64,000 nucleotides of DNA from Quisquiliibacterium transsilvanicum (lineage in GTDB: Bacteria > Pseudomonadota > Gammaproteobacteria > Burkholderiales > Burkholderiaceae_E). Each line of letters opens with the position of its first letter. The stretch's first letter is position 1. The stretch covers positions 409,255 to 473,254 of the forward strand of contig NZ_JACHGB010000004.1 of the NCBI RefSeq assembly GCF_014202215.1, written 5' to 3'. Below are positions 4,571-19,782 of this stretch, piece by piece. The translations under genes were made by a program, and so were the position numbers. The notes beneath the pieces were generated by a model. That model saw only the letters and a list, made by a program, of their open reading frames with translations, did no database searches and was not told the origin of the DNA.

Positions 4571-4930
4571 TCACTCAGGCAGGAACACCGCCAGCCACAC
4601 CGCTGGCGGCTCCATGCTGGTTGTTTCCACCCGGTGCCTGCGGCCGGCCTCGATCAGCACCCAGTCGCCCGGCGCGAGCCGGCGCGGCGCGGGCTCGTCC
4701 TCGAAGCGAAGTTCGGCCTGGCCCTGCAGCAGCGCCACCCATTCGATGCTGTCCTGGCAGTACCAGAAGCCGGGCGGGCTGCGCTGGCCGGTCGAGACGA
4801 TCCGTTCGATGCGCGCGCCGGCGCGCGCCAGCAGCGTGTCGAAGCGTTCGTCGTGCTGGGGGGCGGCGGGCAGGTCGGCGAACAGGCTGCCTTCGAGGGG
4901 CGGTGACGGGGCGGGGGGTTCCGGATTCAT
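4571..4930 (-). CDS. Cupin-domain protein
   Basis: Small single-domain cupin of 119 residues. The conserved barrel segments are visible: WVALLQGQAELRFED (first motif) and APGDWVLIEAGRRHRVETT (second motif, with the metal-ligand His in RRHRVE). This resembles small proteins annotated as cupin or phosphoribosylaminoimidazole-carboxamide-like cupins; no enzymatic role can be assigned. ATG 4930 gives a Pro-rich N-terminal tail. The gene is divergent from the PRISE reductase gene with 111 bases between the starts. Confidence 0.8.
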   Translation of the reverse strand: MNPEPPAPSPPLEGSLFADLPAAPQHDERFDTLLARAGARIERIVSTGQRSPPGFWYCQDSIEWVALLQGQAELRFEDEPAPRRLAPGDWVLIEAGRRHRVETTSMEPPAVWLAVFLPE

Positions 4931-5041
4931 GCGTGCAGGCCCGTCTGCAGAGGGCCGAGCGTTCGACGCAGCAGTATAGGTCTGTCCGCAGGTGGGCTTG
5001 TCGCGGAACATCGGGGCTTTCACGCGGGTGGAGAGTCCCAC

Positions 5042-6148
5042 ATGGGCAACAGGCTTCTGGTGGCCGGCGCGTCCGGCCTGGTCGGCTCGGCAGTGCTGCG
5101 GCATTTCCGAACGCTGCCCGGCTGGCAGGTGGTGGGCGTGTCCCGGCGCCGCCCGCCGGGAATGGACGAGGTGCCGATCCTGTCGGTGGACCTCACCGAT
5201 GCTGCGCGCTGCGCCGAGGCCATCGGGGCGCTGCGCAGCGTCACCCACGTCGTCTATGCAGCGCTGTACGAGAAGGAGGATCTCGTCGCCGGCTGGCGCG
5301 ACCCGGAGCAGATGCGGGTCAACGACGCGATGCTGCGCAACCTGCTGGAGCCGCTGCTCGCGGCGTCGGGCGGGCTGGAACACGTCACGCTGATGCAGGG
5401 GACCAAGGCCTACGGCGCGCATCTTGGGCCGGTGCCAGTGCCGGCGCGCGAGCGCTGGCCGCGCCATCCGCACGACAACTTCTACTGGCTGCAGGAGGAC
5501 TACCTGCGCGCGCGCCAGGCGGGCAGCCGCTGGAGCTTCACCATCCTGCGGCCGCAGGTCATCTTCGGCGAGGCGCTGGGCGGCGCGATGAACCCGATTC
5601 CGGCGATCGGCGCGTATGCGGCGCTGCTGAAGGAGGAGGGCCTGCCGCTGTCGTTTCCCGGCGGCACGGCGCGCGTGGTGCAGGCCGTGGACGCAGACCT
5701 GCTGGCGCGCGCCTGCGCCTGGGCTGCCACCTCGCCGGCGTGCCGCAACGAGACCTTCAACATCAACAATGGCGAGGCCTTCGAGTGGGCCGCGGTGTGG
5801 CCGGCGATCGCCGACGCTTTCGGCATGCGGGTAGGCGAGCCCGCACCGATGTCGCTGGCGCAGGAGATGCCGCGGCGACAGGCGCAGTGGAGCGCGATCC
5901 ATCGCAGGCACCGGCTGCGCTCGCCGGAGCTGCTAGCGGACTTCGTGGGCCTGTCCTTCCAGTACGTGGACCGCAACTTCGGCCACGGCAACCTGCAGGC
6001 GCCTGCGCCCACCCTGGTCAGCACCGTGAAGGCCCGGCAGGCGGGCTTCCACGACTGCGTGGACACCGAGGACATGTTCGTGCGGCTGATCCGCCGCTAC
6101 CAGGAGCTCGGCTGGCTGCCTCCAAGGGTGCCGCATACTTCGTCCTGA
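5042..6148 (+). CDS. PRISE-family (progesterone 5-beta-reductase/iridoid synthase-like) SDR
   Basis: Atypical short-chain dehydrogenase of 368 residues. An N-terminal NADPH motif GASGLVGSAV (about residues 9-18) is followed by the diagnostic GTKAYG and NFYWLQEDYL blocks, where the Lys and Tyr of these motifs replace the classical YxxxK pair. These are hallmarks of the PRISE group, which reduces activated C=C bonds of enones in plants and bacteria. The native bacterial substrate is generally unknown. A GGAGAG stretch precedes ATG 5042. The gene is followed 28 bases later by the CBS-domain membrane protein on the same strand, so co-transcription is possible. Confidence 0.87.
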   Translation: MGNRLLVAGASGLVGSAVLRHFRTLPGWQVVGVSRRRPPGMDEVPILSVDLTDAARCAEAIGALRSVTHVVYAALYEKEDLVAGWRDPEQMRVNDAMLRNLLEPLLAASGGLEHVTLMQGTKAYGAHLGPVPVPARERWPRHPHDNFYWLQEDYLRARQAGSRWSFTILRPQVIFGEALGGAMNPIPAIGAYAALLKEEGLPLSFPGGTARVVQAVDADLLARACAWAATSPACRNETFNINNGEAFEWAAVWPAIADAFGMRVGEPAPMSLAQEMPRRQAQWSAIHRRHRLRSPELLADFVGLSFQYVDRNFGHGNLQAPAPTLVSTVKARQAGFHDCVDTEDMFVRLIRRYQELGWLPPRVPHTSS

Positions 6149-6176: not shown

Positions 6177-7520
6177 ATGGAGCCGCCTGTAACTTTTCTG
6201 CTGATCGCACTGCTGATCCTGGTCAGCGCCTTCCTGTCGCTCTCGGAGATCTCGATGGCGGCCGCGCGCAGGCTGAAGCTGCGGCAGCTCGCGGACGCCG
6301 GGGACGCGCGCGCGCTGGGGGCGCTCGAGATCCAGGAGCGGCCCGGCAACTACTTCACGGTGGTGCAGATCGGCCAGAACATGGTCGCCATCCTGGGCGG
6401 CATCGTGGGCGAAGGCGCGCTGACGCCGTACTTCGTGTCCGCGCTGGAGCACGTGGCCAGCGCCAAGGCCGCGGCGACGATCGGGTTCATCGCGTCCTTC
6501 GTGACCGTGACCTCGCTGTTCGTGCTGTTCTCCGACCTGCTGCCCAAGCGGCTGGCGATGGTCAGCCCCGAGGCGCTGGTGCTGCGGGTGGTCGGGCCGA
6601 TGCGGCTGTGGATGTGGCTGCTGCGCCCTGCGGTCTGGATCTTCGACAGCCTGGCCAACCTGCTGATCCGCCTGTTCCGGCTGCCCGCCGAGCGCGACGA
6701 CCGGGTCACTTCGGCCGACATCCGCGCTATGGCCGAGGCCAGCGCGCAGGCGGGACTGATGGCGCTGGGCGAGCAGCAGATGATCGAGAACGTGTTCGAG
6801 CTCGAGACGCGCACCGTCGAGAGCGCGATGACGACGCGCGAGCGCATCGTCTACCTGCTTCTGGACGACAGCGACGAGCAGATCCGCAGCCGGGTCGCCG
6901 CGCAGCCGCACTCCACCTACCTGGTCTGCGACCAGAACATCGACCAGGTGGCGGGCTACGTGGATGCGCCCGACCTGTTCCAGCGGGTGCTGCAGAACGA
7001 ATCGATCTCGCTGAAGGAACAGCCCGCCGGCGGGCTGCTGCGCAAGGTGCTGATCGTGCCGGACCGGCTGACGCTGTCCGAGGTGCTCGAGCAGTTCCGG
7101 CAGGCGCACGAGGACTTCGCGGTGATCGTCAACGAGTACAGCCTGGTGGTCGGCATCATCACCCTGAACGACGTGATGAGCACGGTGATGGGCAGCCTGG
7201 TGGCGCCGGGCGACGAGGAGCAGATCGTGCGGCGCGCGGACGGCTCCTGGCTGATGGACGGCCTCACGCCGATCGGCGACGTGACCCGCGCGATCCACGC
7301 CGACCCGGCGCTGCTGCCGCAGCGCGGCCAGTACGACACGCTGGCCGGCTTCCTGATGGTGATGCTGCGCCGGATCCCGCGGCGTACCGACGCGGTGTCC
7401 TGGGGCAGCTACCGCTTCGAGGTGATGGACGTCGACGGCTACAAGATCGATCAGGTCATGGTGACGCAGACCGACGGCGACGCGGCGGAGAAGGTGGCGG
7501 AGCCGGCTGCCGAGGGCTGA
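6177..7520 (+). CDS. DUF21/CBS-domain membrane protein of the CorC/YtfL (PaeA) family
   Basis: Protein of 447 residues: an N-terminal DUF21 membrane domain with about four hydrophobic segments (residues 3-25, 60-80, 95-130, 140-165), a tandem CBS pair (about 205-340, including TRERIVYLLLDD and EDFAVIVNEYSLVVGIITLNDVM) and a C-terminal transporter-associated domain. The arrangement and length fit the YtfL/PaeA branch (polyamine export in E. coli) and the related CorC/TlyC proteins (metal efflux). The last 70 bases overlap, in the opposite strand, the 3' end of cobA, so the two transcripts collide without an intergenic spacer. Confidence 0.88.
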   Translation: MEPPVTFLLIALLILVSAFLSLSEISMAAARRLKLRQLADAGDARALGALEIQERPGNYFTVVQIGQNMVAILGGIVGEGALTPYFVSALEHVASAKAAATIGFIASFVTVTSLFVLFSDLLPKRLAMVSPEALVLRVVGPMRLWMWLLRPAVWIFDSLANLLIRLFRLPAERDDRVTSADIRAMAEASAQAGLMALGEQQMIENVFELETRTVESAMTTRERIVYLLLDDSDEQIRSRVAAQPHSTYLVCDQNIDQVAGYVDAPDLFQRVLQNESISLKEQPAGGLLRKVLIVPDRLTLSEVLEQFRQAHEDFAVIVNEYSLVVGIITLNDVMSTVMGSLVAPGDEEQIVRRADGSWLMDGLTPIGDVTRAIHADPALLPQRGQYDTLAGFLMVMLRRIPRRTDAVSWGSYRFEVMDVDGYKIDQVMVTQTDGDAAEKVAEPAAEG

Positions 7521-8275
7521 TCCAGTGCGGCCGCGCCGCGCACCACGTCGCCCACCACGATGATCGACGGACTGCCCAGCCGTTCCAGGCGCAGGGTTGC
7601 GGCGAGCCGGCCGAGCGTGCACAGCGCATGCCGCTGGTCGGGGCGGCTGGCGTTCTGGACCACCGCGACAGGGGTGGCCGAGGGCAGGCCCTGCAGCAGG
7701 CCGTCCTGGATCGCTTCGGCGCTGCCCACCCCCATGTAGATCACCAGCGTCAGGCGGGCCAGCCTAGCGCTGGCGGCGAGCGCTCCCCAGTCCGGCGCCT
7801 CGTCCCCGGGGCGCTGGTGCCCGGTGACGAAGGCGACGCCGTGCGCGTGCTCGCGATGGGTCAGCGGCACGCCAATCGAGGTCGCTGCCGCCAGTCCCGA
7901 GGTGATGCCGTTGATGGTCTCGACGCGCAGGCCCGCGTCGCGCAGGTGCTCCACTTCCTCGCCGCCGCGCCCGAACACGAAGGGGTCTCCACCCTTGAGG
8001 CGGACCACCGTCTCGCCGGCGCGTGCGCCCATCACCATCAGCCTGCAGATGAAGGCCTGCGGCGTGCTGCGACAGCCGCCGCGCTTGCCCACGCGGATGA
8101 TGCGCGCGTCGGGGCGAGCATGCTCCAGCACCGCCTCGTCGACCAGGTCGTCGACCAGCAGCAGGGTCGCCGAGGCGATGGCCCGGGCGGCTGCGATCGT
8201 CAGCAGATCGGGGTCGCCTGGGCCGGCGCCGACCAGGGTGACGGTGGGTGGGGCGTACAGGGCGTCGGGGTTCAT
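7451..8275 (-). CDS. cobA: Uroporphyrinogen-III C-methyltransferase (SUMT)
   Basis: Protein of 274 residues that transfers two methyl groups from S-adenosylmethionine to uroporphyrinogen III to form precorrin-2, the branch point to siroheme. Visible signatures are VGAGPGDPDLLTIAA near the N-terminus, RVGKRGG, VVRLKGGDPFVFGRGGEE and the GITSGLAA loop, all standard for the single-function SUMT. It is the last gene of the nitrate-assimilation operon, where siroheme is needed by NirB. Its ATG overlaps the ybiB stop by 4 bases. The C-terminal 23 residues are encoded antisense to the end of the CBS-domain gene and look like an added low-complexity tail. Confidence 0.95.
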   Translation of the reverse strand: MNPDALYAPPTVTLVGAGPGDPDLLTIAAARAIASATLLLVDDLVDEAVLEHARPDARIIRVGKRGGCRSTPQAFICRLMVMGARAGETVVRLKGGDPFVFGRGGEEVEHLRDAGLRVETINGITSGLAAATSIGVPLTHREHAHGVAFVTGHQRPGDEAPDWGALAASARLARLTLVIYMGVGSAEAIQDGLLQGLPSATPVAVVQNASRPDQRHALCTLGRLAATLRLERLGSPSIIVVGDVVRGAAALDQPSAAGSATFSAASPSVCVTMT

Positions 8276-9240
8276 CGCGGGGGCTCCGGTTGAGGGCGAT
8301 CCGTGCCATGGCGATCCGTGCCGTGGCGGGCGCTGTCGGCAAGGACGAGGCGGCGCAGTTCGAGCAGATGCTCCACCTGGACCGCGATCGGTTCGGGCAA
8401 GGGCAGCCGGCCGGCGAGCACGGCCTCGATGTATCGGGCCGTGTCACCGGCATCGGTCGAGGGCAGTTCCGGCACCGGGCGCAGCCCGCCGGCCTGTTGA
8501 TCCTGGAGCGTGCGTGGCACGCCGCCGACGTAGCCCGTCATCCCGGGCGTGCGGCGCGGGTCGGCCACCGGCTCGCCTTCGGTGCCACGCAGCAGCAGCG
8601 CGTCGGCGTGCATGAGCTCGAAGGTGGCGCTCATCGAAGCCTGGTACTCGAGATGGGTGTGGCAACCGACCACCAGTGCGCGGCCGGCGCAAGGATTCAT
8701 CAGCTTGACCAGCGAATGTGCCGGGTTGCGCACCCCGATGGCCCGGCGCACCTGCAACAGGCGCTCCAGCCCGGGGCAGAGCACGCCAGTTGGCAGGAAG
8801 GCGGCCTCGCCGGGCGCGACCGGGCCGGCGGAGCTGCGGGCCGGCATCCCGAGCTCGGCCATCACCATCGCGGCGGTGACGCGCGCGGATTCGGTGGCGG
8901 CGCCGTGCAGCAGCACCGGAGCGCCGTGGCGGGCCAGCAGCAGCGCGAGCAGGGGCGTGAGCCCCGGCAGCTTGCGGGCGCCGTTGTAGCAGGGCAGCAC
9001 CACCGGCGCCTCGTCGCCAGCCACCAGATGGGTGCGCTGTCGGGTCGCGTCGAGGAAACCGGCCATCTCGATGGGCGTTTCGCCCTTGAAGCGCATCGCC
9101 ATGCAGAAGGCCCCGACCTCCAGGTCGCTGGCGATGCCGTCGAGCACCTGGCCGAACAGGTCCCCGGCCTGCGTGCGCTCCAGCGCGCGGGCGCCGTCGC
9201 GGCCGCGTCCGACCTGCCTGAGATAGTGATCGATGGCCAT
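8272..9240 (-). CDS. ybiB: YbiB-type protein, anthranilate phosphoribosyltransferase-like fold
   Basis: Protein of 322 residues related to TrpD (anthranilate phosphoribosyltransferase) but of the YbiB branch, reported in E. coli as a DNA-binding, SOS-linked protein and not a tryptophan enzyme. Features seen: N-terminal LERTQAGDLFGQVLDGIASDLEVGAFCMAMRFKGET, the PVLLHGAATES segment in place of the TrpD PRPP loop, and LVKLMNP. It lies between nasA and cobA in the nitrate operon, with 33 bases to nasA and a 4-base overlap with cobA, so it is co-expressed with nitrate reduction. A role in the pathway is inferred only from this position. Confidence 0.85.
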   Translation of the reverse strand: MAIDHYLRQVGRGRDGARALERTQAGDLFGQVLDGIASDLEVGAFCMAMRFKGETPIEMAGFLDATRQRTHLVAGDEAPVVLPCYNGARKLPGLTPLLALLLARHGAPVLLHGAATESARVTAAMVMAELGMPARSSAGPVAPGEAAFLPTGVLCPGLERLLQVRRAIGVRNPAHSLVKLMNPCAGRALVVGCHTHLEYQASMSATFELMHADALLLRGTEGEPVADPRRTPGMTGYVGGVPRTLQDQQAGGLRPVPELPSTDAGDTARYIEAVLAGRLPLPEPIAVQVEHLLELRRLVLADSARHGTDRHGTDRPQPEPPR

Positions 9241-9273: not shown

Positions 9274-12075
9274 TCAGGCGCAGGCCTGCGCCCGCGCGGA
9301 CTCGGGCACTCCGTCTGCGCCGCTCGCCAGGCGCTTGAGCTCCGGCACGCAGGCGCCACATCCGGTGCCGCAGCGCAATCCTTGCTGCAGCGAGCGCAGC
9401 CGTTCCTCGGTGCCGCCCGGGTGGCCGTCCAGGTGAGCCCGAATCGCCCGGTCGCTGACGTCATGGCAGGTGCAGACGGTGCGGCCGCGATCCTGGACCG
9501 GCACCGGCGGCTCGGCGTGCGCGGCCAGCAGCGAGCGGGCGTGGCCGCCGACCGCCAGCCGCTCGCGAAGCATCGAGCCCATCCAGCCCGAGGCGCGGGT
9601 GTCGCCGGCCAGCAGGAAGGCCTCGAGCCGCGCCGTCTCGCCTGCGCCGTCGAGCCTGAGCGCGCGCCGCTGGCCGCGGCGCGGGTCGGCGTAGCGCAGC
9701 GCCGCCGGGCCGTCCAGCTCGAGCAGCTGCTCGATGCGTCCGAGCACTGCCTGGTCCGCGGGTTCGGCTGCCGCGGCGCGCAGCAGCACGTCGATGCGCT
9801 CGCCGGCGCCGCCGGAGAAGGGCACGCAGGACGCGAAGCCGAAGTCGTCGAAGGTCTCGCGCAGCGCCTGCCGGATCGTGAGCGCCCGTTCTTCAGGCAG
9901 CCAGGCGAGCGCGACCAGCCCCCAGGGCAGCTCGCAGCGTTCGATCGAGACGGCCGAATGCTTGAGTTCGGGCTGTTTCGAGTCGGGGCAGAACGCCGGG
10001 CTGCTCAGGGCGTTGACGCCGGCCAGCGGTGTGCCGTCAGCGTCGCGGCCGCCCAGGAACTCATCGCCCCAGTGCATCGGAATGAAGGCCTGCGAGGCGC
10101 CCAACTCCGGCGCCGGCCGTGCCGGCAGCACCAGCGCGCCGCGCGCGGAGGCCACGCGCACGAGGGTGCCGTCGCCGATGCCCAGGCGCTCCATGTCCTG
10201 GGGATGCAGCTGGACCGCGGGCTCGCCGGCGTGGTCGAAGAGCCGCGCCACGGCGCCGGTGCGCGACATGCCGTGCCACTGGTCGCGCAGTCGTCCGGTG
10301 TTCAGCGCGAAGGGTCGTGCGGCGTCTGGCGCTTCTGCGGGCGGGCGCCAGGCCGTATCGTCGAAGCGGGCCCTGCCGTCGCCGGTGGCGAACACCAAGT
10401 CCTGGTAGAGCCGGGCGGTGCCGGCCGTCGCGCCCTCCGGCAGCGGCCACTGTTGCGGTCCGGCGCGATCGATCATCGCCCAGTCCAGGCCGGTGATATC
10501 GAGGTCCCTGCCGCGGGTGGTCTCGCGATGCTCGTTCCAGATCGACTCAGGGTCCTCAAAGGGAAACAGGCCGGGGCGGCCCAGCCGCCCGCCGAGGCGG
10601 CGCGCCAGTCCCACCACGATCGCCCAGTCGTGCCGCGCCTGGCCGGGCGGGGGAACCGCGGCGCGCACCCGGCTGATGCGTCGCTCGCTGTTGGTGACGG
10701 TGCCGTCCTTCTCGCCCCAGGCGCTCGCCGGCAGCAGCAGGTCCGCGTAGCGGCCGGTGGCGGTGCCGGCGAAGGCCTCCTGCAGCACGACGAACTCGGC
10801 GCGCTCCAGCGCCCGGCGCACCGTGGCCTGGTCCGGCATCGACTGCGCCGGGTTCGTGCAGGCGATCCAGAGCATCCGGATCTCGCCGTCGGCCGCCGCC
10901 TGGAACATCTCCACTGCGGTGCGCCCGGGACGCTCCGGCACCGAAGGCACGCCCCACAGTGCGGCCACCTCAGCGCGGTGCGCGGGGTTGGCGAGATCGC
11001 GATGGGCTGGCAGCAGGTTGGCCAGGCCGCCGACCTCGCGCCCGCCCATCGCATTGGGTTGTCCGGTGAGCGAGAAGGGCCCTGCGCCCGGCCGGCCGAT
11101 CTGACCGGTGGCCAGGTGCAGGCCGATCAGCGCGGCATTCTTCGCGGTGCCACTGCTCGACTGATTCAGTCCCTGGCACCAGAGGCTCAGCGTCGCCTGC
11201 GAGGTGGCGAACAGGCGGGCCGCGGCATGCAGGTCCTCGACAGGGATTCCGCAGGTGCGGGACACGCGCTCCGGCGTGCAGTCGGCAACGGTGCGCGCCA
11301 GCGCCTCGAAGCCCACGGTGTGCCCGGCGATGAAGCCGGGCCGGGTCCAGCATTCGCGGATCATCAGGTGCAGCATGCCGTGGAACAGCATGACATCGGT
11401 GCCGGGCTGCAACTGCAGGTGGAGGTCGGCGGCCGCGGCGGTCTCGGTGCGGCGCGGGTCGCAGCAGACGATGCGCAGCCCTGGCCTGCGCGCCCTCGCG
11501 TCCTCGATGCGCCTGTACAGCACCGGGTGGGCCCACGCCGGGTTGGCGCCAGCGATGAACAGGCAGTCCGCGTGGTCGATGTCCTCGTAGCAGGCAGGCG
11601 GGGCGTCGGCCCCCAGCGTTCGCTTGTAGCCGGCCACCGCGCTGCTCATGCACAGGCGGGAATTGGTGTCGACGTTGTTGGTGCCGAGCAGCCCCTTGGC
11701 CAGCTTGTTGAAGACGTAGTAGTCCTCGGTGAGCAGCTGCCCGGACACGTAGAAGCCGACCGCATCCGGGCCGTGGTCGCCCACCACGCGGTGCATCGTG
11801 TCCGCGGCGAGATCCAGCGCGTCGTCCCAGCCCAGCGGCGCCGGGGCCGCGCCGCGATGCTCGCGCCGCATCGGCACGAGCAGCCGGGCCTGGGTCGCAA
11901 CCCGGGGCGAGGCGGTGAGGTGCAGCGTCGAACCCTTGGTGCAGAGCCGGCCGAAGTTGGCCGGGTGCTCCGGATCGCCGCGCACCCCGGTGATCCGCTG
12001 CCCGTCGGACTCCACCAGCACGCCGCAGCCCACGCCGCAGTAGGGGCAGGTGGAGCGGGTTTCGTGCGTGCTCAT
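9274..12075 (-). CDS. nasA: Assimilatory nitrate reductase, molybdopterin catalytic subunit
   Basis: Cytoplasmic molybdenum enzyme of 933 residues that reduces nitrate to nitrite. An N-terminal [4Fe-4S] motif has Cys10, Cys13, Cys17 and Cys45. The bis-MGD-binding body contains AGANPAWAHPV and LLLPASAWGEKDGTVTNSERR; a C-terminal molydopterin-binding beta-barrel follows (DQWHGMSRTG). The last 70 residues form a BFD-like [2Fe-2S] domain (CTC at about 868-870 and CGTGCGAC at about 902-909), as in Klebsiella NasA. The start at 12075 overlaps the nirD stop by 4 bases; the longer frame to 12528 is inside nirD. No nasC-type NADH diaphorase gene is present, so the electron donor is open. Confidence 0.96.
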   Translation of the reverse strand: MSTHETRSTCPYCGVGCGVLVESDGQRITGVRGDPEHPANFGRLCTKGSTLHLTASPRVATQARLLVPMRREHRGAAPAPLGWDDALDLAADTMHRVVGDHGPDAVGFYVSGQLLTEDYYVFNKLAKGLLGTNNVDTNSRLCMSSAVAGYKRTLGADAPPACYEDIDHADCLFIAGANPAWAHPVLYRRIEDARARRPGLRIVCCDPRRTETAAAADLHLQLQPGTDVMLFHGMLHLMIRECWTRPGFIAGHTVGFEALARTVADCTPERVSRTCGIPVEDLHAAARLFATSQATLSLWCQGLNQSSSGTAKNAALIGLHLATGQIGRPGAGPFSLTGQPNAMGGREVGGLANLLPAHRDLANPAHRAEVAALWGVPSVPERPGRTAVEMFQAAADGEIRMLWIACTNPAQSMPDQATVRRALERAEFVVLQEAFAGTATGRYADLLLPASAWGEKDGTVTNSERRISRVRAAVPPPGQARHDWAIVVGLARRLGGRLGRPGLFPFEDPESIWNEHRETTRGRDLDITGLDWAMIDRAGPQQWPLPEGATAGTARLYQDLVFATGDGRARFDDTAWRPPAEAPDAARPFALNTGRLRDQWHGMSRTGAVARLFDHAGEPAVQLHPQDMERLGIGDGTLVRVASARGALVLPARPAPELGASQAFIPMHWGDEFLGGRDADGTPLAGVNALSSPAFCPDSKQPELKHSAVSIERCELPWGLVALAWLPEERALTIRQALRETFDDFGFASCVPFSGGAGERIDVLLRAAAAEPADQAVLGRIEQLLELDGPAALRYADPRRGQRRALRLDGAGETARLEAFLLAGDTRASGWMGSMLRERLAVGGHARSLLAAHAEPPVPVQDRGRTVCTCHDVSDRAIRAHLDGHPGGTEERLRSLQQGLRCGTGCGACVPELKRLASGADGVPESARAQACA

Positions 12076-12458
12076 GCGCAACTCGCTGCCCGCCCCGCGG
12101 GGCCGGCCGCCGGCCGGCCGAGGTCGGTGGCCCGCCCGGCCAGTTCCCCGGCGTCGAGATGGACCACGCCGCCCTCGACGCGCACCGAGAAAGACGCGGT
12201 GCAGCCCTCGTCGGGCGCCTGTGCGCGGCCGTCGGCGAGCCCGATGGTCCAGTTGTGCAGCGGGCAGGCGACGCTGCGCCCGAACACGATGCCCTGCGAC
12301 AGCGGGCCGCCGCGGTGCGGGCAGCGGTCCAGCAGCGCGAACACCTCGTCGGCGGCGGTGCGGAACAGGGCCACGTCCAGGCCCTGCTTTCGGGCGACGC
12401 GGCGTGCCCCCAGGACCGGGATGTCGTCCACCCGGCAGATCGCTTTCCAGTCGTTCAT
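12072..12458 (-). CDS. nirD: Nitrite reductase small subunit (Rieske-like)
   Basis: Small subunit of NADH-dependent assimilatory nitrite reductase, 128 residues. It keeps an intact Rieske [2Fe-2S] motif, C46-P-H48 and C65-P-L-H68, in the contexts CPHRGGPL and CPLHNW; many NirD proteins have lost these ligands, so this copy probably binds a cluster. The C-terminal 25 residues are a Gly/Ala/Arg-rich tail beyond the usual fold. ATG 12458 has a GAGGAGCAC ribosome-binding site and lies 32 bases after nirB. The stop overlaps the nasA start (ATGA), which indicates coupled translation. Confidence 0.95.
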   Translation of the reverse strand: MNDWKAICRVDDIPVLGARRVARKQGLDVALFRTAADEVFALLDRCPHRGGPLSQGIVFGRSVACPLHNWTIGLADGRAQAPDEGCTASFSVRVEGGVVHLDAGELAGRATDLGRPAAGPAGRAASCA

Positions 12459-12490
12459 CGTGTGCTCCTCGGGATCGGTTCGTGGTGCGC

Positions 12491-14935
12491 TCACGCCGGG
12501 ACGGGCTCGAACTGCCGGGCGTCGACACCGGCGGCGGCGAACTCGAACCACGGATCCGGCTCGCCCTCGAGCGCCGCCTGCAGCCGCGCCCAGAGCGCGC
12601 GGCGGCCTTCGGCGTCCTCGACGACGCAGCGGCGGACGTGGTCCAGGCCGACGCGATTCACGTAGTGCACCGTGCGTTCCAGGTACCAGCCCTCCTCGCG
12701 GTAGAGCTGCATGAAGGCGCCGGTATGCTCGAGCACCTCCTCGGAGCTGCCGAGCTTGACCAGGAAGTGGCCCACCTCGGTCTTGATGCCGCCGTTGCCG
12801 GCGATGTACATCTCCCAGCCGCTCTCGACGCCGACGATGCCGACGTCCTTGATCCCGGACTCGGCGCAGTTGCGCGGGCATCCGGACACAGCGAACTTGA
12901 CCTTGTGCGGCGCATACATCCGCCACATCGCGCGCTCCAGGTCCTTGCCCAGGCGGGTGCTGTCCTGCGTTCCCATCCGGCACCATTCGCTGCCCACGCA
13001 GGTCTTCACGGTGCGCAGCGCCTTCGCGTAGGCATGCCCGCTGGGCATGCCGAGGTCGCGCCAGACGGCGGGCAGGTCCTCCTTGCGCACCCCCAGCAGG
13101 TCGATGCGCTGGCCACCGGTCACCTTGACCGTGGGAATCGCGTAGCGGTCGACGACGTCTGCGATGCGGCGCAGCTCCGCGGCGCTGGTTTCCCCGCCCC
13201 ACATCCGCGGCACCACGCTGTAGCTGCCGTCCTTCTGGATGTTGGCGTGGCTGCGCTCGTTGACGAAGCGGCTCTGCGGGTCGTCCTTCGCCTGCTTCGG
13301 CCAGGTGCTGATCAGGTAGTAGTTGACCGCCGGGCGGCAGGCCGAGCAGCCATCCGGGCTGCGCCATTCCATGAAGCGGAACACCTCGGGGACGCTCAGC
13401 AGCCGGTGCGTCCGGATTGCGTCGCGAACCGCCTGGTGGCCATGCTCGGTGCAGCCGCAGATCGGCCGGGTCTTCGGCGTGGCCGAGTAGTCGCCGCCGG
13501 CGGTGGACATCAGGATCTGCTCGACCAGCCCGGTGCAGGAGCCGCAGCTGGCGCTGGCCTTGGTGTGCTTGCGCACCTCCTCCAGCGTGAACAGGCCCTG
13601 CTCCTTGATCGCCTTGCAGATCGCGCCCTTGGTGACGCCGTTGCAGCCGCAGACCTCGTCGGTGTCCACCATCGCTGCCGCCTTGCTGTGTCCTTCGTGG
13701 CCGCCGTCGCCGATGCCGGATTCGCCGAACATCAGCCGGTCGCGGATGTCGGCCACGCTGCGGCCATCGCGCAGCAGCCCGAAGTACCAGCTGCCGTCGA
13801 CCGTGTCGCCATACAGGCAGGCGCCCACCAGCCGGTCGTCCTTGAGCACCAGCTTCTTGTAGACCCCGGCCGACGGGTCGCTCAGCACGATCGACTCGCT
13901 GTCCTCGTCGCCCTTGAAATCGCCGGCGGAGAAAAGGTCGATCCCGGTCACCTTGAGCTTGGTCGAGGTGAGCGAGCCGGTGTAGCGGCCGATTCCGAAC
14001 TCGGCGAGGTGATTGGCCGCGACCTTCGCCTGCTCGAACAGCGGCGCCACCAGTCCGTATGCGACGCCGCGGTGCGCCGCGCATTCGCCCACCGCGTAGA
14101 CGCGGGGGTCGGTCACCGTCTGCAGGGTGTCGCTCACCACGATGCCGCGGTCGACGTGCAGGCGCATCCGCTCGGCGAGCGCGGTCTCAGGGCGGATTCC
14201 GACCGCCATCACCACCAGCTCGGCGGGACTCTCGCGTCCGTCCCGGAATCGCACCGCGCGCACCCGGCCGTCCTCGCCGCCGAGCAGCTCCTCGGTCTGC
14301 GCGCCGACCAGGAAGCGCAGGCCGCGCGCCTCCAGCGATTCCTGCAGCATCCTGCCGGCCACTTCGTCGAGCTGGCGCTCCATCAGCGTCGGCGCAACGT
14401 GCACCACGCTCACGTCCATGCCGCGCTTGAGCAGGCCGTTGGCCGCCTCCAGGCCCAGCAGCCCGCCGCCGATCACCACCGCGTGCCGGCGGGTGGCGGC
14501 AGCCTCGATCATCGCCTGGGTGTCGGCGATGTCCCGGTAGGCCAGCACGCCGCCCAGCCCGCTGCCCGGCACCGGCAGGATGAAGGGCCTGGAGCCGGTC
14601 GCCATCAGCAGGCGGTCGTAGCCGGCCTCGATCGCCTCGCCGTCCGGATTGCGGGCGCGGACGATCCGCCGGGTCCGGTCGACCTCGGTCACGGTCCAGC
14701 CGGCGTGCAGCACGATTCCGTGGTCGCGGTACCAGGACCAGTCGTTGAGGACGATCTCGTCGAGAGTCTGCTCACCGGCCAGTACCGGAGACAGCAGGAT
14801 GCGGTTGTAGTTCGGATGCGGCTCGGCGCCGAAGACGGTGATGTCATGGCTGTCCGGAGCGATGCGGATCAGCTCCTCGAGCGTGCGCACGCCGGCCATC
14901 CCGTTGCCGATCATCACGAGGCGGGGTCTTTGCAT
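12491..14935 (-). CDS. nirB: Assimilatory nitrite reductase [NAD(P)H] large subunit
   Basis: Enzyme of 814 residues that carries out six-electron reduction of nitrite to ammonium. Domain order: FAD/NAD-binding pyridine disulfide oxidoreductase part (about 1-320; NGMAGVRTLEE, VIGGGLLGLEAANGL), two BFD-like [2Fe-2S]-type segments (CGCNGV...CGSC at about 420-470 and CGCTEHG...CSAC), then the ferredoxin-like and siroheme/[4Fe-4S] half with Cys646, Cys652, Cys686 and Cys690 (CVGSEWC and GCPRNC). All cofactor ligands are intact. It follows nrtD after 77 bases and precedes nirD. Siroheme demand is met by cobA at the end of the same operon. Confidence 0.97.
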   Translation of the reverse strand: MQRPRLVMIGNGMAGVRTLEELIRIAPDSHDITVFGAEPHPNYNRILLSPVLAGEQTLDEIVLNDWSWYRDHGIVLHAGWTVTEVDRTRRIVRARNPDGEAIEAGYDRLLMATGSRPFILPVPGSGLGGVLAYRDIADTQAMIEAAATRRHAVVIGGGLLGLEAANGLLKRGMDVSVVHVAPTLMERQLDEVAGRMLQESLEARGLRFLVGAQTEELLGGEDGRVRAVRFRDGRESPAELVVMAVGIRPETALAERMRLHVDRGIVVSDTLQTVTDPRVYAVGECAAHRGVAYGLVAPLFEQAKVAANHLAEFGIGRYTGSLTSTKLKVTGIDLFSAGDFKGDEDSESIVLSDPSAGVYKKLVLKDDRLVGACLYGDTVDGSWYFGLLRDGRSVADIRDRLMFGESGIGDGGHEGHSKAAAMVDTDEVCGCNGVTKGAICKAIKEQGLFTLEEVRKHTKASASCGSCTGLVEQILMSTAGGDYSATPKTRPICGCTEHGHQAVRDAIRTHRLLSVPEVFRFMEWRSPDGCSACRPAVNYYLISTWPKQAKDDPQSRFVNERSHANIQKDGSYSVVPRMWGGETSAAELRRIADVVDRYAIPTVKVTGGQRIDLLGVRKEDLPAVWRDLGMPSGHAYAKALRTVKTCVGSEWCRMGTQDSTRLGKDLERAMWRMYAPHKVKFAVSGCPRNCAESGIKDVGIVGVESGWEMYIAGNGGIKTEVGHFLVKLGSSEEVLEHTGAFMQLYREEGWYLERTVHYVNRVGLDHVRRCVVEDAEGRRALWARLQAALEGEPDPWFEFAAAGVDARQFEPVPA

Positions 14936-15012
14936 GGTGTCTCTCCCTGGCCGGCGGGCTCTCTGGATGAGCCCGGGGTCGGCGTTCTGTTCTGTTTCGG
15001 TACGGTGGGTGC

Positions 15013-15858
15013 TCAGGCGCGCAGCGCGGCGCTGCGCTGCGCGAGATCGGCCGGCGCGCCGCGCAGCGGCTCGACCTTGCGCTGCTTCTCGTACAGGAAG
15101 CTCAGCACCTCCTGACGGCAGCGGTTGTAGTCGGCGTTGCCGGCCAGCGCGATGCGTTCGCGCGGGCGCGGCAGCTGCACGTCGAGCACCTGGCCGATGG
15201 TAGCCGCCGGCCCGTTGGTCATCATCACGATGCGATCCGACAGCAGCACCGCCTCGTCGACGTCATGGGTGATCATCATCACCGTGTTGCGCCGCTCGGC
15301 CTGGATGCGCATCACCTCGTCCTGCAGGTGAGCGCGGGTCAGCGCGTCCAGCGCGCCGAAGGGCTCGTCGAGCAGCAGCACCTTGGGCTTCATCGCCAGC
15401 GCCCGGGCAATCCCCACGCGTTGCTTCATCCCTCCGGAGATCTCCGACGGGAGCCGCTGCAGCGCGTGGCGCATGTTGACCATCTCGAGGTTCTGGAGCA
15501 CCCAGTCGCGGCGCTCGCCGGCGCCGAGCTTGCCTCGGAACACCTTGTCGACCGCCAGCGCGACGTTCTGGTAGACGGTCAGCCAGGGCAGCAGCGAATG
15601 GTTCTGGAAGACCAGCGCGCGGTCCGGTCCGGGGGCGCCGACCTCGCGGCCGTCGACGATGACGCCGCCGATCGAGGGCTGCAGCAGGCCGGCGACGATG
15701 TTGAGCACGGTCGACTTGCCGCAGCCGGAGTGGCCGATCAGCGAAACGAACTCGCCGCGCTGGACGTCCAGGTCGATGCCGCGCAGCACCTCGCTGGTGG
15801 TTCCGCCGCGCGTGAAGCTCATTCCCACGCGGGAGATGCTCAGGTATGCATTGCTCAT
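15013..15858 (-). CDS. nrtD: Nitrate ABC transporter, ATP-binding protein
   Basis: ATPase of 281 residues energising nitrate uptake. Walker A is GHSGCGKST at residues 42-50, the Q-loop is FQNHSLLPWL, the signature is SGGMKQR, Walker B is VLLLDEP with D-loop GALDALT, and the switch His is in MITHDVDEA. The NrtC/NrtD/SsuB/TauB group of ATPases is the closest match. It lies 19 bases after the permease gene and is followed by nirB, so its substrate is assigned with good support from context. It lacks the extra NrtA-like domain that NrtC proteins carry. Confidence 0.94.
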   Translation of the reverse strand: MSNAYLSISRVGMSFTRGGTTSEVLRGIDLDVQRGEFVSLIGHSGCGKSTVLNIVAGLLQPSIGGVIVDGREVGAPGPDRALVFQNHSLLPWLTVYQNVALAVDKVFRGKLGAGERRDWVLQNLEMVNMRHALQRLPSEISGGMKQRVGIARALAMKPKVLLLDEPFGALDALTRAHLQDEVMRIQAERRNTVMMITHDVDEAVLLSDRIVMMTNGPAATIGQVLDVQLPRPRERIALAGNADYNRCRQEVLSFLYEKQRKVEPLRGAPADLAQRSAALRA

Positions 15859-15877
15859 GGTGTGCTCCGCGTTGCGG

Positions 15878-16744
15878 TCAGCCGGCGGACGTGCCGCGCG
15901 TGACCCAATTGCCGACTGCGGCGACCAGCCGGTCGAGCAGGAATCCGACGACGCCCACGTAGACGAGGGCGAGGATGATGTCGCTGATCAGCGACGAGTT
16001 CCACGCGTCCCAGATGAAGAAGCCGATGCCCACGCCGCCGATCAGCATTTCGGCCGCGATGATCGCCAGCCAGGACAGACCGACCCCGATGCGCAGGCCG
16101 GAGAAGATGTAGGGCGCCGCGGCGGGCAGCATCACCTTCCAGAAGTACTCGAGGCCGTTGAGCCGGATCACGCGGGCCACGTTGCGGTAGTCGTCCGGGA
16201 TGTTGCGGATGCCCACCGAGGTGTTGATGATGATCGGCCAGATCGACGTGATGAAGATGACGAAGATCGCCGACGGATTGCTGTCCTGGAAGCCGGCCAG
16301 CGAGATCGGCAGCCAGGCCAGCGGCGGCACGGTGCGCAGCACCTGGAACAGCGGGTCGAGCCCGCGCAGCGCCCAGGCCGACTGGCCGACCAGCACTCCC
16401 AGCGCCACGCCCGCCACCACCGCGAGCGAGTAGCCGTAGGCCACCCGCTCCAGGCTGGCGAGGATCTGCCAGGCCAGGCCCACGTCGTTGCCGCCGTTGT
16501 CGAAGAAGGGGTTGGCGATCAGTTCCCAGCTGTCCTCGATGACGCGGCTGGCGCTGGGCAGCGCGGCGCCCGGGCTGGAGCCGAGGATCTCCCAGATGCC
16601 CACCAGCAGGGCCAGGATCGCCAGGGGCGGCAGGACATGGGCGGCCAGGCTGCGCAGCGCGGGGACCATGCGTGTGTGCCGGGCCGGCGGGGCGCCGGGC
16701 GTGGCCGGCAGGCGGACGGCCGCCAGGGTGTCGGTCTGTTTCAT
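15878..16744 (-). CDS. nrtB: Nitrate ABC transporter, permease protein
   Basis: Inner-membrane permease of 288 residues with about six hydrophobic segments and the binding-protein-dependent transport signature. Typical NrtB/SsuC elements are FQVLRTVPPLAWLPISLAGFQDSNPSAIFVIF and the EAA-like loop with NVARVIRLNGLEYFWKVMLPAAAPYIFSGLRIGVGLSWLAIIAAEML. The N-terminal 30 residues are cytoplasmic and basic. It sits between nrtA (36 bases upstream) and nrtD (19 bases downstream) in the same operon. Confidence 0.94.
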   Translation of the reverse strand: MKQTDTLAAVRLPATPGAPPARHTRMVPALRSLAAHVLPPLAILALLVGIWEILGSSPGAALPSASRVIEDSWELIANPFFDNGGNDVGLAWQILASLERVAYGYSLAVVAGVALGVLVGQSAWALRGLDPLFQVLRTVPPLAWLPISLAGFQDSNPSAIFVIFITSIWPIIINTSVGIRNIPDDYRNVARVIRLNGLEYFWKVMLPAAAPYIFSGLRIGVGLSWLAIIAAEMLIGGVGIGFFIWDAWNSSLISDIILALVYVGVVGFLLDRLVAAVGNWVTRGTSAG

Positions 16745-16780
16745 CTCGGGCTCCGGGGAATTGCTCGTTGCCGCATCGGG

Positions 16781-18085
16781 TCAGGCGCGCAGATGCTTGA
16801 TCGACAGGCTGTCCAGGTAGGCCTGCGGCCGTGCCGGATCGAAGACCTTGCCGTCGAAGAACTTTTCCACGCCCCGCGAGGTCGTTGCGGGGGTGTCGCT
16901 CGCGGCCACGCCGAGCTCGCGCGCGGCCGCGCGCCAGAGATCCTCGCGGTTGACCTTCGCGATCCAGCCCTTGCCGTCGAAGCCCTGCGGCAGGTAGCCC
17001 CAGCGGACGTTCTCGGTGAGGAACCAGAGATCGTGGCTTTGGAACGGGTAGGACGCGTGGTCCTTCCAGTAGCGCATCTGCGCAGGGCTGTTCTCCACCA
17101 CGCGGCCGGTGCCGTAGTCGAAGTCGCCGCGCAGCCGGTCGACGATGTCCTCGAAGGGTGCGTTGATCCAGCGCCGCTTCGCGCAGATCCGGGCGACCTC
17201 CTCGCGGTTCTTCCGGTCCTCGCACCACATCTGCGCTTCCATCACCGCTTTGAGCAGGGCACGCGCGGCGTTCGGGTTGGCGTCGACCCAGTCGGCCCGC
17301 ATCGCGAAGGCCTTCTCCGGGTGGTTGTGCCAGAGCTCGCCGGTGGTGTTGGCGGTGTAGCCGATCTTCTGGTTGATCAGCTGCCGGTTCCAGGGCTCGC
17401 AGACGCAGAAGGTGTCCATGCTGCCGACCTTCATGTTGGCGACCATCTGCGCGGGCGGCACCACGATGGTGGAGATGTCGCGCACCGGGTCGATGCCGCC
17501 GGCCGCCAGCCAGTAGCGCATCCACATGTCGTGGGTGCCGCCGGGAAAGGTCATCGCCGCGCTGACGGTCTTGCCGGATTTCGCCTTGGCGGCAAGCGCC
17601 TTGCCGAAGGCCTTCGCGTCGGTGCCGACCTTCAGGTCGCGGTACTCGTTGCCCACCGAGATGCACTGCCCGCCCAGGTTCAGGCGCGCCAGGATGTACA
17701 TCGGCACCTGGACGTTGTTGGCCGTCATCGCACCGCTGCCGATCAGATACGGCATCGGGGTCAGGATGTGGGCGCCGTCGATGCCGTTCCTCGCCGAGCC
17801 GAGCACCAGGTTGTCGCGTGTGGTGCCCCACGACGACTGCTTCATGACCTGCACGTCGCTCATTCCGTGCCTGGCGAAGAAGCCCTTCTCGTCGGCGACG
17901 AACAGCGGGGCGGCATCGGTCAGCGCGATGAAGCCGAGCTTCGCAGTCTGGGTTTCGGGCTTGCCCGCGGCTGCGCGCGCCGCGCGGGGCAAGGTGCCGG
18001 CGGCGAGCGCGGCGCCGCCCGCTGCAGCCGCTCCGAGCAGCAGGGAGCGGCGCGACCGGTCTGCAATGGCTGAGGGTTCTTTCAT
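16781..18085 (-). CDS. nrtA: Nitrate ABC transporter substrate-binding protein
   Basis: Periplasmic nitrate-binding protein of 434 residues, CmpA/NrtA family. The N-terminus carries a twin-arginine signal (RSRRSLLLG followed by a long Ala/Gly hydrophobic stretch ending ARA), so export by Tat is likely. The body shows KLGFIALTDAAPLFVADEKGFF, VLGSARNGIDGAHILTPMPYLI and the CVCEPWNRQ segment, all typical for the family. First gene of the nitrate operon; translation starts 28 bases after the terminator-like hairpin of the regulated leader. A GGGAG ribosome-binding site precedes ATG 18085. The longer frame to 18418 would run through the leader hairpins and was rejected. Confidence 0.95.
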   Translation of the reverse strand: MKEPSAIADRSRRSLLLGAAAAGGAALAAGTLPRAARAAAGKPETQTAKLGFIALTDAAPLFVADEKGFFARHGMSDVQVMKQSSWGTTRDNLVLGSARNGIDGAHILTPMPYLIGSGAMTANNVQVPMYILARLNLGGQCISVGNEYRDLKVGTDAKAFGKALAAKAKSGKTVSAAMTFPGGTHDMWMRYWLAAGGIDPVRDISTIVVPPAQMVANMKVGSMDTFCVCEPWNRQLINQKIGYTANTTGELWHNHPEKAFAMRADWVDANPNAARALLKAVMEAQMWCEDRKNREEVARICAKRRWINAPFEDIVDRLRGDFDYGTGRVVENSPAQMRYWKDHASYPFQSHDLWFLTENVRWGYLPQGFDGKGWIAKVNREDLWRAAARELGVAASDTPATTSRGVEKFFDGKVFDPARPQAYLDSLSIKHLRA

Positions 18086-18112
18086 CGACGACTCCCGTGG
18101 CAGTGAGGAACG

Positions 18113-18164
18113 AAAAACGGCGCCTTCGCGACGCCTGCGCGGGGCAGGCGGGCGAACGACGCCG
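18113..18164 (-). terminator. Leader terminator (attenuator) of the nitrate operon
   Basis: On the minus strand a long imperfect hairpin ends in five T residues (18117-18113). The stem has three blocks: CGCCTGC/GCAGGCG around a CCCGC loop, TTCGC/GCGAA below it, and a basal block CGGCGTC/GGCGCCG with one G-T wobble. The 5' arm begins inside the second regulatory hairpin (18154-18174) and shares bases 18154-18164 with it, so the two structures cannot form together. It ends 28 bases before the nrtA start. This is the layout of an ANTAR-controlled attenuator. Confidence 0.82.
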
Positions 18165-18174
18165 TTGTCGGTTC
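18154..18174 (-). promoter_or_regulatory. ANTAR-binding RNA hairpin P2 (NasR target)
   Basis: Minus-strand hairpin with loop AACGGC closed by CGAC/GTCG, extended by GAA/TTC after a bulged C. The hexaloop has A at position 1 and G at position 4, the two bases that define ANTAR-recognised hairpins, and is identical to the P1 loop. Its 3' half is the 5' arm of the terminator, so stabilising P2 would prevent termination. Confidence 0.82.
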
Positions 18175-18186
18175 GGTCCCTGAGGA

Positions 18187-18222
18187 CCCGTGGAACCCGC
18201 CGCCGTTGGCGGGCACCACGGG
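18187..18222 (-). promoter_or_regulatory. ANTAR-binding RNA hairpin P1 (NasR target)
   Basis: Minus-strand hairpin with a two-part stem: outer CCCGTGG/CCACGGG (7 bp), a small TG/TT internal loop, inner CCCGCC/GGCGGG (6 bp), capped by hexaloop AACGGC with A1 and G4. It begins at about the predicted transcription start and lies 12 bases before P2, which matches the two-hairpin tandem described for ANTAR antiterminator targets. Confidence 0.82.
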
Positions 18223-18230
18223 CCATATCA

Positions 18231-18246
18231 AGCAGTTTGCGTGCCA
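18231..18246 (-). promoter_or_regulatory. Sigma-54 promoter of the nitrate operon
   Basis: Minus-strand sequence TGGCACG-CAAA-CTGCT matches the sigma-54 consensus TGGCACG-N4-TTGCW at all but one specified position. GG and GC are separated by exactly 10 bases (the -24/-12 elements). The predicted start is near 18220, that is, at the foot of hairpin P1, giving a leader of about 135 bases before nrtA. Nitrogen control through NtrC is therefore likely. Confidence 0.85.
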
Positions 18247-18450
18247 GGGCATTGACGAACGCGCCGCAAGCCTGCTGCGAGTGCGGCCCGATCCGGGTCC
18301 TGCCAAGGGAGACCGGCCCGCCAGGCGACCGCTGAGCCTTGTCTGTCGAGGCCTCCAGCGGCAGGCCCGGTCCCCGGCGCTGGTGCGTCACGGCCCGCGA
18401 TCGTGCGCCTGAAGGCACTGTTTTTGTGCGCTGCAGCAGCAGCGCTGCAC
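18247..18450 (-). promoter_or_regulatory. Upstream region of the nitrate operon with an NtrC-like dyad
   Basis: Non-coding stretch of 204 bases between nasR and the sigma-54 promoter. The clearest element is GCAC-N7-GTGC at 18415-18429, the core of the NtrC enhancer dyad, centred about 200 bases upstream of the predicted start. The flanking bases do not fit the full TGCACC-N5-GGTGCA consensus, so this is a weak to moderate match. No second full dyad was found, and I see no gene here. Confidence 0.45.
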
Positions 18451-19782
18451 TCAGCGCGGGCGTACCGGGAGCAGCTCGGCCATCGCCAGCACCGCCTCCG
18501 CGACCTCCGCCAGCCGGCGATTCCGCTCCATCGCCATCCGCCGCAGCGTCCGGTGCGCCTCCTCCTCGGTGAGCTGGCGATGAGCCATCAGCAGCCCCTT
18601 GGCCCGTTCGATCAGCTTGCGATCCTCGAGGCTGCTGCGGGCGGTGTCCAGCTCCGCGCCGAGCGTGCGCAGACGCCGCGCCTGTTCATGCGCCAGATCG
18701 AGGATCGATCGAACGAGCTGCGGCCCGAACACCCCGGCGTCCAGCGCGTCCGAGTCGTCGAGGGGGAAAGCTTGTTCGGCGCAGATGACGCCGGCCGGGG
18801 CTCCTGCAGCGCCGGTCCAGGCGGGTTCCCGGTGGCGGCCCGCATCCAGAGCCAGGAGGTCGGTCTGCGCCGCGGCGCTGCGGTCGTGGCAGGACTGGAC
18901 CAGCGCGTCGGCAAGCCGTTTCTCGACCGCCCGCATCCGATCGATGCGTTGCGAGCAGGCCTCGAACCACTCAGGGCCGAGCGAATTGTCGAGCGACCCG
19001 TCCGCAGGGGCGGTGCACAGGATGCGACGCAGTCGTTCCAGTCCGGCGAGCACGGGCGGCGCCTGATGCGCCTGCCAGGCGTCCTGGTGCGCGGGCCCGG
19101 CGAAGTCGGCGAACACGGCAAGGCAGCGCTCCTGGGCGTCGATCAGGTGCAGCAGCCGCTGCTGGGCTGCCGTCCGCGCACGCTCGCCGGCAAGCATCGC
19201 CGTGCCAGCGGCGCGCTCCTGGCCGGCGAACTCCTTGCCCTGCATGAAATTGAATAAGGCCACCAGCTGGCGGGAGATCCCCGGGTCGGCGGCGCTGTCG
19301 GCTGCCTCGAAAACGACCGCCAGCAGTCCTGCCACCAGTCGCACGTAGGCCGCCGTGGCGCGGTCGGTCGAGGGCGTGAGCTGGTCGATCTCCGCGCGCA
19401 GTCCGGGCAGCGCGTCCAGCGCGCACAGCAGCTGTGCCACGCGGGCGAACAGGCGTGCGCCGTTGCCGGCCCTGGCCGGATCGATGTCCAGGCGGTCCAG
19501 GCAGGCGCGCAGGGCGGCCTCGCTGCTGTCGCTTGCCTGGCGCTGCTCGCGCATCGGACCGTCGGCGCGGACGCCGCCGGAGCCGAGGTAGAGGTTGGAC
19601 AGCCCGCGCTCGCGCTGCAGCTCGTGCACCAGGCTTGCGGTCGCATCGACCAGGGCACTGGTCTTGGCGAGCCGCCCGAGTTCGGCGATCTCGCAGCGCT
19701 TGGCGGCGATCAGGAAGTCGATGGTCGATTTCACCGGGTTGGGCGCATGGTGCGCCAGAGGAGGACCCGGAGAAAGAGGCAA
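18451..19782 (-). CDS. nasR: NasR-type nitrate-responsive transcription antiterminator
   Basis: Regulator of 443 residues with a nitrate/nitrite-sensing NIT domain (about 45-320, including LVHELQRERGLSNLYLG and the later ALFNFMQGKEFAGQERA segment) and a C-terminal ANTAR RNA-binding domain (about 375-435, LEDRKLIERAKGLLMAHRQLTEEEAHRTLRRMAMERNRRLAEVAEA). This is the NasR arrangement: nitrate binding allows the ANTAR part to hold leader RNA in the antiterminated form. Both predicted RNA targets lie immediately downstream, ahead of nrtA. A GTG at codon 17 (VKSTIDF) is an alternative start, because the first 16 residues are Pro-rich and unlike the family. Confidence 0.93.
   Translation of the reverse strand: MPLSPGPPLAHHAPNPVKSTIDFLIAAKRCEIAELGRLAKTSALVDATASLVHELQRERGLSNLYLGSGGVRADGPMREQRQASDSSEAALRACLDRLDIDPARAGNGARLFARVAQLLCALDALPGLRAEIDQLTPSTDRATAAYVRLVAGLLAVVFEAADSAADPGISRQLVALFNFMQGKEFAGQERAAGTAMLAGERARTAAQQRLLHLIDAQERCLAVFADFAGPAHQDAWQAHQAPPVLAGLERLRRILCTAPADGSLDNSLGPEWFEACSQRIDRMRAVEKRLADALVQSCHDRSAAAQTDLLALDAGRHREPAWTGAAGAPAGVICAEQAFPLDDSDALDAGVFGPQLVRSILDLAHEQARRLRTLGAELDTARSSLEDRKLIERAKGLLMAHRQLTEEEAHRTLRRMAMERNRRLAEVAEAVLAMAELLPVRPR

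Follow-up and report, generated by a model that had tools for sequence, protein, structure and literature searches.

The DNA between nasR and nrtA in the window, by which we mean the whole 64 kb stretch analysed here, very probably holds a two-key (AND) switch through which the nitrate assimilation operon would be turned on only when nitrogen shortage and nitrate occur together. This reading is supported because each of its elements is in place, the elements keep the same order in relatives, and the leader RNA passed tests of covariation. The parts and their order, their conservation and covariation, the mutual exclusion of two RNA structures and the link to ANTAR proteins were all established by computation. 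The original prediction had proposed that nitrogen status (sigma-54/NtrC) and nitrate (NasR) must both be permissive, and the sequence argues for this: NasR is the sole ANTAR protein found in the genome, genes for NtrC and RpoN are present, and the promoter is preceded by an NtrC-type site. The elements, listed in the order of transcription, are these.

18451..19782, minus strand: nasR, encoding a NIT plus ANTAR nitrate-responsive antiterminator (PF08376, 6.6e-59; PF03861, 2.4e-20)
18415..18429, minus strand: NtrC-type site GCAC-N7-GTGC, 183 bp before the promoter TGG and absent from the original prediction
18231..18246, minus strand: sigma-54 promoter TGGCACGCAAACTGCT, conserved in the aligned leaders
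18219..18220, minus strand: predicted transcription start, placed by its distance to the -12 element
18187..18222, minus strand: hairpin P1, hexaloop AACGGC
18175..18188, minus strand: putative spacer hairpin GGUCC-UCAG-GGACC, seen in the minimum-energy fold and in relatives of the same spacing class
18157..18170, minus strand: hairpin P2, CGAC[AACGGC]GUCG, the predicted antiterminator, which can extend to 18174/18154
18113..18166, minus strand: intrinsic terminator, stem 18166-18116 and T run 18117-18113, its 5' arm made of the P2 loop and 3' arm

A profile of 12 NasR proteins was used to choose the best 80 of 538 confirmed nasR-like relatives, a choice that favours Comamonadaceae. A strict pattern, the sigma-54 element followed by P2, was found at 63 of these best 80 nasR loci, and the window supplies the 64th leader; the P1 pattern failed in two of the 64 (L069 and L107), which leaves a set of 62. 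Covariance model R1, built from 27 of the 32 leaders whose P1 and P2 loops lie 39-42 nt apart, recovered 11 of the other 17 loci, just downstream of nasR, so that a leader is found at 74 of the best 80; the six loci without a clear one include L110, which is cut by a contig end, and L085, in which other sequence follows nasR. In L077 the leader is some 2.6 kb downstream of nasR, and in the remaining strict-pattern loci it is closer; 58 of the 63 (from the best 80 of 538) have an NrtA-like gene no more than 600 nt beyond the leader. R1 has one match at E<=0.01 in the genome of the window (7e-21).

Within the 27-leader alignment 91.9% of the cells pair, and both partners vary in 9 of the 12 pairs of P1 and in 5 of the 12 of the terminator; when the 3' partners were shifted by 1-3 columns, only 41-47% of the cells still paired and the covariation score, 0.391 in register, was at most 0.115. 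Covariation in relatives, on which the original prediction had made its leader depend, is therefore present in both P1 and the terminator across these 27 leaders. Conservation of A1 and G4 in the P1 and P2 loops is not independent evidence, because the search patterns required both bases. The identical loops and the start at the foot of the first hairpin had been called notable for a probable betaproteobacterium, but nasR leaders turn out to be common in Burkholderiales. When 17 of the 80 nasR loci were scanned with Rfam at gathering level, a Trp leader and a tRNA were the only hits, so Rfam at its cut-offs misses the leader type in these 17.

The promoter agrees with the description first given of it, a sigma-54 element with ten bases between GG and GC: TGGCACGCAAACTGCT, at 18246-18231 on the minus strand, reads as GG-N10-GC and is the single match to TGGCACNNNNNYTGCW in the 64 kb, against 0.10 expected. 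The usual spacing rule for sigma-54 promoters would put the start at 18220 or 18219, and the corresponding column of the leader alignment holds a nearly invariant C. The lowest two or three pairs of P1 precede this predicted start. A start at the foot of P1 was considered as a universal rule and rejected: in the 62 leaders with the P1 pattern, the P1 loop lies 34-45 nt after TGG in 41 and 56-64 nt after it in 21. Most of these 21 have another hairpin first (L121 does not). L056, L060, L063, L096, L097 and other Variovorax-type leaders have a hairpin near the predicted start, 5' of P1, and P1 then lies at 56-64 nt; that first hairpin is probably no ANTAR site, because its loop varies (TTCG in L096 and L097).

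Upstream of the promoter, a first scan for NtrC sites used the longer consensus TGCACC-N5-GGTGCA, to which the window conforms at only 8 of 12 positions, and the pattern GCAC-N7-GTGC, which we take to be the half-site geometry of NtrC enhancers, was used afterwards. It occurs within 250 bp upstream of the promoter in 52 of the 64 leaders (0.92 expected from shuffles), while control spacers of N4-6 and N8-11 between GCAC and GTGC gave 0-4 of 64. For the window alone the chance of one such site in these 250 bp is 0.02, and over the whole 64 kb the pattern is at its chance level (4 found, 4.0 expected), so the claim of an NtrC site rests on the 64-leader comparison. L065, L069, L098, L099, L102 and L108 have two such sites upstream of the promoter, 29-31 bp apart, an arrangement expected of NtrC dimers that cooperate. 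The genes for NtrC and RpoN lie elsewhere in the genome, and both products score above their family cut-offs.

Two hairpins with the same AACGGC hexaloop (A1, G4) had been described in the leader, and these are P1 and P2. Identity of the loops is a less distinctive trait than had been thought, since 24 of the 62 leaders have the same P1 and P2 loop and 22 have AACGGC in both. The folding energy is -30.2 kcal/mol for P1 (z -4.6) and -35.4 kcal/mol for the terminator taken from 18166 (z -4.5), in each case with none of 200 shuffles equally stable; P2 alone is an ordinary fold (z -0.8, 37 of 200 shuffles equally stable) and so rests on conservation. The short five-T run is as first reported, except that the AA of the loop pairs with two of its bases. 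Likewise, the terminator does share its 5' arm with the second hairpin, but over 18166-18154, that is, the P2 loop and 3' side, and not over 18164-18154. Because the 5' arm of the terminator starts at the first base of the P2 loop, P2 and the full terminator cannot coexist. Enforcing P2 costs the window leader 14.6 kcal/mol relative to the terminator form, and across the 62 leaders the cost has a median of 15.3 kcal/mol and is positive in every one. Nascent RNA ending at 18150 or 18131, before the last terminator arm, forms P1, the spacer hairpin and P2; in the best fold of RNA that ends at 18140, P1 and the upper part of P2 persist and the spacer hairpin is lost. From these folding costs and nascent folds, the model is that P2 can form during transcription but would have to be held in order to survive.

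The "12 bases" that were said to separate the two hairpins belong to the spacer hairpin at 18188-18175, which rests on comparison because its single-sequence significance is weak. Leaders whose loops lie 28-30 nt apart (22 of 62) have no linker hairpin and a median of 5 unpaired linker bases. At 39-42 nt (32 of 62) the median linker is 20 nt long, a hairpin is found in 31, and a median of 6 bases is unpaired; the 8 leaders with other loop distances include 5 with a linker hairpin and have a median of 12.5 unpaired. The linker helices differ in sequence (GUCU/AGAC, GGCU/AGCC and CGCGUUCU/AGAACGCG, for example). Among ten distinct spacer hairpins both bases vary in 3 of 5 pairs, with a covariation of 0.387 against 0.130 when shuffled; these ten were chosen by hand for a shared four-base loop, and the test therefore leans towards structure. 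The outermost pair is formed in only 3 of the ten. This is moderate evidence that the spacer hairpin is present in 31 of the 32 leaders of its spacing class, and it suggests that the extra hairpin keeps two protein-binding loops close together. In EutV leaders natural linkers are reported to be 5-12 nt long, linkers of 3 or 14 nt strongly cut induction, and an additional 20 nt abolished antitermination (PMC3369931, PMC8934654). Since linker length is limited in EutV leaders, folding away surplus linker would make sense. In the literature searched we found no mention of a spacer or linker hairpin in ANTAR leaders.

We consider it an even chance that two things hold jointly: that a sequence-independent spacer hairpin acts as a ruler in Burkholderiales NasR leaders, and that narK RNA is a sigma-54 promoter DNA plus ANTAR P1-P2 unit. 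In the first part of this joint reading about five unpaired bases would be left whatever the P1-P2 length, so that one NasR dimer could bridge both loops; in the second, narK RNA would be no orphan RNA and would serve NasR as well as shorter, NasT-like ANTAR proteins. Somewhat less probable, yet a serious competitor to the first part, is that the spacer hairpin does not function as a ruler, in which case GC-rich linkers would fold anyway and NasR would tolerate varied linkers. Shuffled linkers do often fold too, and some natural ones leave many bases unpaired (12-14 in L051, L078 and L091, 18 in L068); on the other hand, differing helices with compensatory changes occupy the same place in nearly all leaders of the class, and the short and long classes keep nearly the same median of unpaired bases. 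At most 12 linker bases are unpaired in 88 of 102 leaders. Over 49 long linkers, a set which left out L012, L172, L173, L176, L130 (the window itself), L137 and L138, 378 bases in total were unpaired against 455 +- 39 in shuffles, with 3 of 200 shuffles as low. It is the 36 NasR-set linkers that give this signal (267 unpaired, 344 in shuffles, 3 of 200 as low), which speaks for a ruler; the 13 long linkers from other loci have no excess pairing (111 against 111), which speaks for linkers that merely fold.

The second part of the joint reading concerns the Rfam family RF03032, narK RNA, for which no paper was found in the literature searched. RF03032 aligns to the window over 18245-18156 at 35.4 bits, below its gathering cut-off of 43.2, and the window is therefore not filed under the family, though it would appear to work alike. 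Model positions 1-15 read GGCaC-N5-UUGCU, a sigma-54 element; next come a hexaloop hairpin and the greater part of another hairpin. The likeness to the window thus extends from the sigma-54-like start through both hairpins, and the strongest matches in the order share the layout; the difference is that the model stops at P2 and leaves the terminator out. Thirty-four of 300 Burkholderiales genomes match at E<=1e-3, 3 of them over the cut-off, and all 34 encode an ANTAR protein, against 111 of the other 266 (Fisher 1.9e-12). The gap from match to ANTAR gene is 31-350 bp in 20 of 24 cases, hand-picked out of the 34 for an ANTAR gene on the same contig. The three loci over the cut-off (L167-L169) all have the sigma-54 element, two A1/G4 hairpins and a T run. 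Among 17 narK-like loci, 14 have two A1/G4 hairpins, L012 has one, and L172 and L173 have none; a sigma-54-like element is present in 15 and a T run in all 17. The promoter-like start of the model, the hairpins and the co-occurrence with ANTAR lead us to read narK RNA as a promoter plus ANTAR leader, and by its sequence it appears to be a promoter-leader unit of the present kind.

For the window itself the protein partner seems clear. A nasR gene with NIT and ANTAR domains had been placed upstream, and the domain matches confirm it; the gene ends at 18451, about 200 bp before the promoter, and its product holds the sole ANTAR match found in the genome (E<=0.001). Across the class, 51 of 369 genomes have a leader recognised by R1 at E<=0.01 and 43 have one at E<=1e-3, and an ANTAR protein was found in 114 of the 369. 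All 43 genomes with a match at E<=1e-3 encode ANTAR, against 71 of the 326 others (Fisher 1.6e-25, a P value that overstates independence because the genomes are related); at E<=0.01, 4 of the 51 leader genomes are without ANTAR, all with weak matches. An ANTAR gene lies within 20 kb on the same contig for 43 of the 48 R1 matches at E<=1e-3, in 2 of these 43 on the opposite strand. In the 30 best class-wide matches the sigma-54 element is in place in 20 (19 by script, plus L129) and missing in 10. Whenever more than 40 genomes were searched, the filters were stricter and weak matches were lost, so the class- and order-wide leader counts are probably low. The ANTAR frames are either longer than 400 aa (NasR-like) or about 200 aa, the latter presumably NasT. 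Similar leaders do stand beside ANTAR genes with the shorter frames in other genomes, as they would if the attenuator answered to another ANTAR protein, of the NasS-NasT type, and not to the adjacent NasR; we regard this as very improbable here, given that only one ANTAR domain was found in the genome, in NasR, and that nasR is the neighbour of the leader both in the window and in the best-80-of-538 set.

Equally improbable is that control stops at the sigma-54/NtrC step, with the hairpins and terminator left as relics or serving as no more than a terminator after nasR, for while such a terminator would by itself be ordinary, P1 and the terminator covary, P2 and the terminator share bases in one register, the leader stands after the promoter and before an NrtA-like gene in the 58 of 63 loci already given, and leader and ANTAR co-occur across genomes.

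In the two-key switch as we picture it, the start site, termination, nitrate dependence and binding are carried over from Klebsiella NasR and EutV. As the first key, nitrogen limitation would lead phosphorylated NtrC at 18429-18415 to activate sigma-54 RNA polymerase at 18246-18231, and transcription would begin near 18219, at the foot of P1. As the second, P1, the spacer hairpin and P2 would fold in the nascent RNA. If nitrate is lacking, the downstream arm would invade P2 and complete the terminator (18166-18113), and transcription would stop before nrtA; if nitrate is present, NasR made from the adjacent gene would use its ANTAR domains to bind P1 and P2 at their A1/G4 loops, and P2 so held would block the terminator and let transcription enter nrtABC-nirBD-nasA. 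The spacer hairpin may, with less support than the other steps, fold away surplus linker so that one NasR dimer reaches both loops. The genes downstream are as follows.

16781..18085, minus strand: nrtA, with which the operon begins, nitrate ABC transporter binding protein (PF13379, 1.6e-105; no NCBIfam family above its cut-off)
15878..16744, minus strand: nrtB, nitrate ABC transporter permease (TIGR01183, over cut-off)
15013..15858, minus strand: nrtC, nitrate ABC transporter ATPase (TIGR01184, over cut-off)
12491..14935, minus strand: nirB, nitrite reductase large subunit (TIGR02374, over cut-off)
12072..12494, minus strand: nirD, nitrite reductase small subunit (TIGR02378, over cut-off)
9274..12132, minus strand: nasA-type molybdopterin oxidoreductase, start provisional (PF00384, PF01568, PF04879; no NCBIfam equivalog above its cut-off)
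8272..9240, minus strand: YbiB-like protein (NF006005, over cut-off)
7451..8275, minus strand: uroporphyrinogen-III C-methyltransferase, for siroheme (TIGR01469, over cut-off)

When the window (12491-19782) is compared with loci L159/L160 of a genome of the same genus (G008, 81% complete with 5% contamination), NirB is 84% and NasA 69% identical, NrtA only 38% and NasR 44%; the NrtA of the window is 82% identical to that of Azoarcus taiwanensis (L113). These sequence identities suggest a mosaic operon in which nasR-leader-nrtAB was exchanged as a block.

Other arrangements of the leader were also seen. A third A1/G4 hexaloop hairpin lies 34-40 nt before P1 in L146, L148, L151, L009, L176 and perhaps L170, and in the first five of these no sigma-54 element was found where expected; such leaders are perhaps internal attenuators in operons that start with the ANTAR gene. 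Two leaders flank nasR in L111 (3324-3442 minus, 4913-5034 plus), in L115 (3303-3421 minus, 4915-5036 plus) and in L107 (3237-3378 minus, 4947-5123 plus, the second weak at 26.7 bits). L166 has two leaders (5358-5480 minus, 13175-13296 minus), one before an NrtA-like gene and one before a NasA-like gene.

Among known systems, the NasS-NasT nas leaders of Paracoccus, Azotobacter and Bradyrhizobium resemble the window in that nitrate assimilation genes are controlled by ANTAR antitermination (PMC3795266, PMC5424462); they differ in pairing a sensor, NasS, with NasT, whereas the window has the NIT domain of NasR and no second ANTAR protein was found. The EutV eut leaders of Enterococcus faecalis share the A1/G4 P1/P2 pair, a P2 that lies over the terminator and the importance of linker length (PMC3369931, PMC8934654), and differ in their response-regulator input (EutW/EutV). 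Closest is the nasF leader of K. pneumoniae (plasmid copy), with nasR directly upstream, a sigma-54 GG-N10-GC, A1/G4 hexaloops in P1 (CGAACC[AATGGC]GGTTCG) and P2 (GGAT[AAAGGC]GTCC), a P2 overlapping the terminator, a T run and an NrtA-family gene downstream. In that leader, however, P1 lies 52 nt after TGG and the loops, AATGGC and AAAGGC, are 25 nt apart, while in the window the distances are 38 and 41 nt, the latter with a spacer hairpin, and the loop is AACGGC twice. Published work describes joint control of the K. oxytoca nas genes by Ntr and NasR (PMC5424462), binding of P1-P2 RNA by NasR with nitrate (PMC7496416) and an ANTAR dimer that is thought to stabilise P2 (PMC3369936). Judged by its sequence, then, the switch of the window is the logic of Klebsiella nasF in a betaproteobacterium and already known in kind; novelty may lie in the spacer hairpin, in how narK RNA is read and in how widely the family occurs. 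The comparison carries the two-key nitrate switch of Klebsiella over to many betaproteobacteria and backs each of its elements. It also proposes a function for narK RNA of Rfam, and the linkers that it brings together, dozens of natural variants, can serve for probing the allowed distance between two ANTAR-bound loops, a distance that the EutV work marks as critical.
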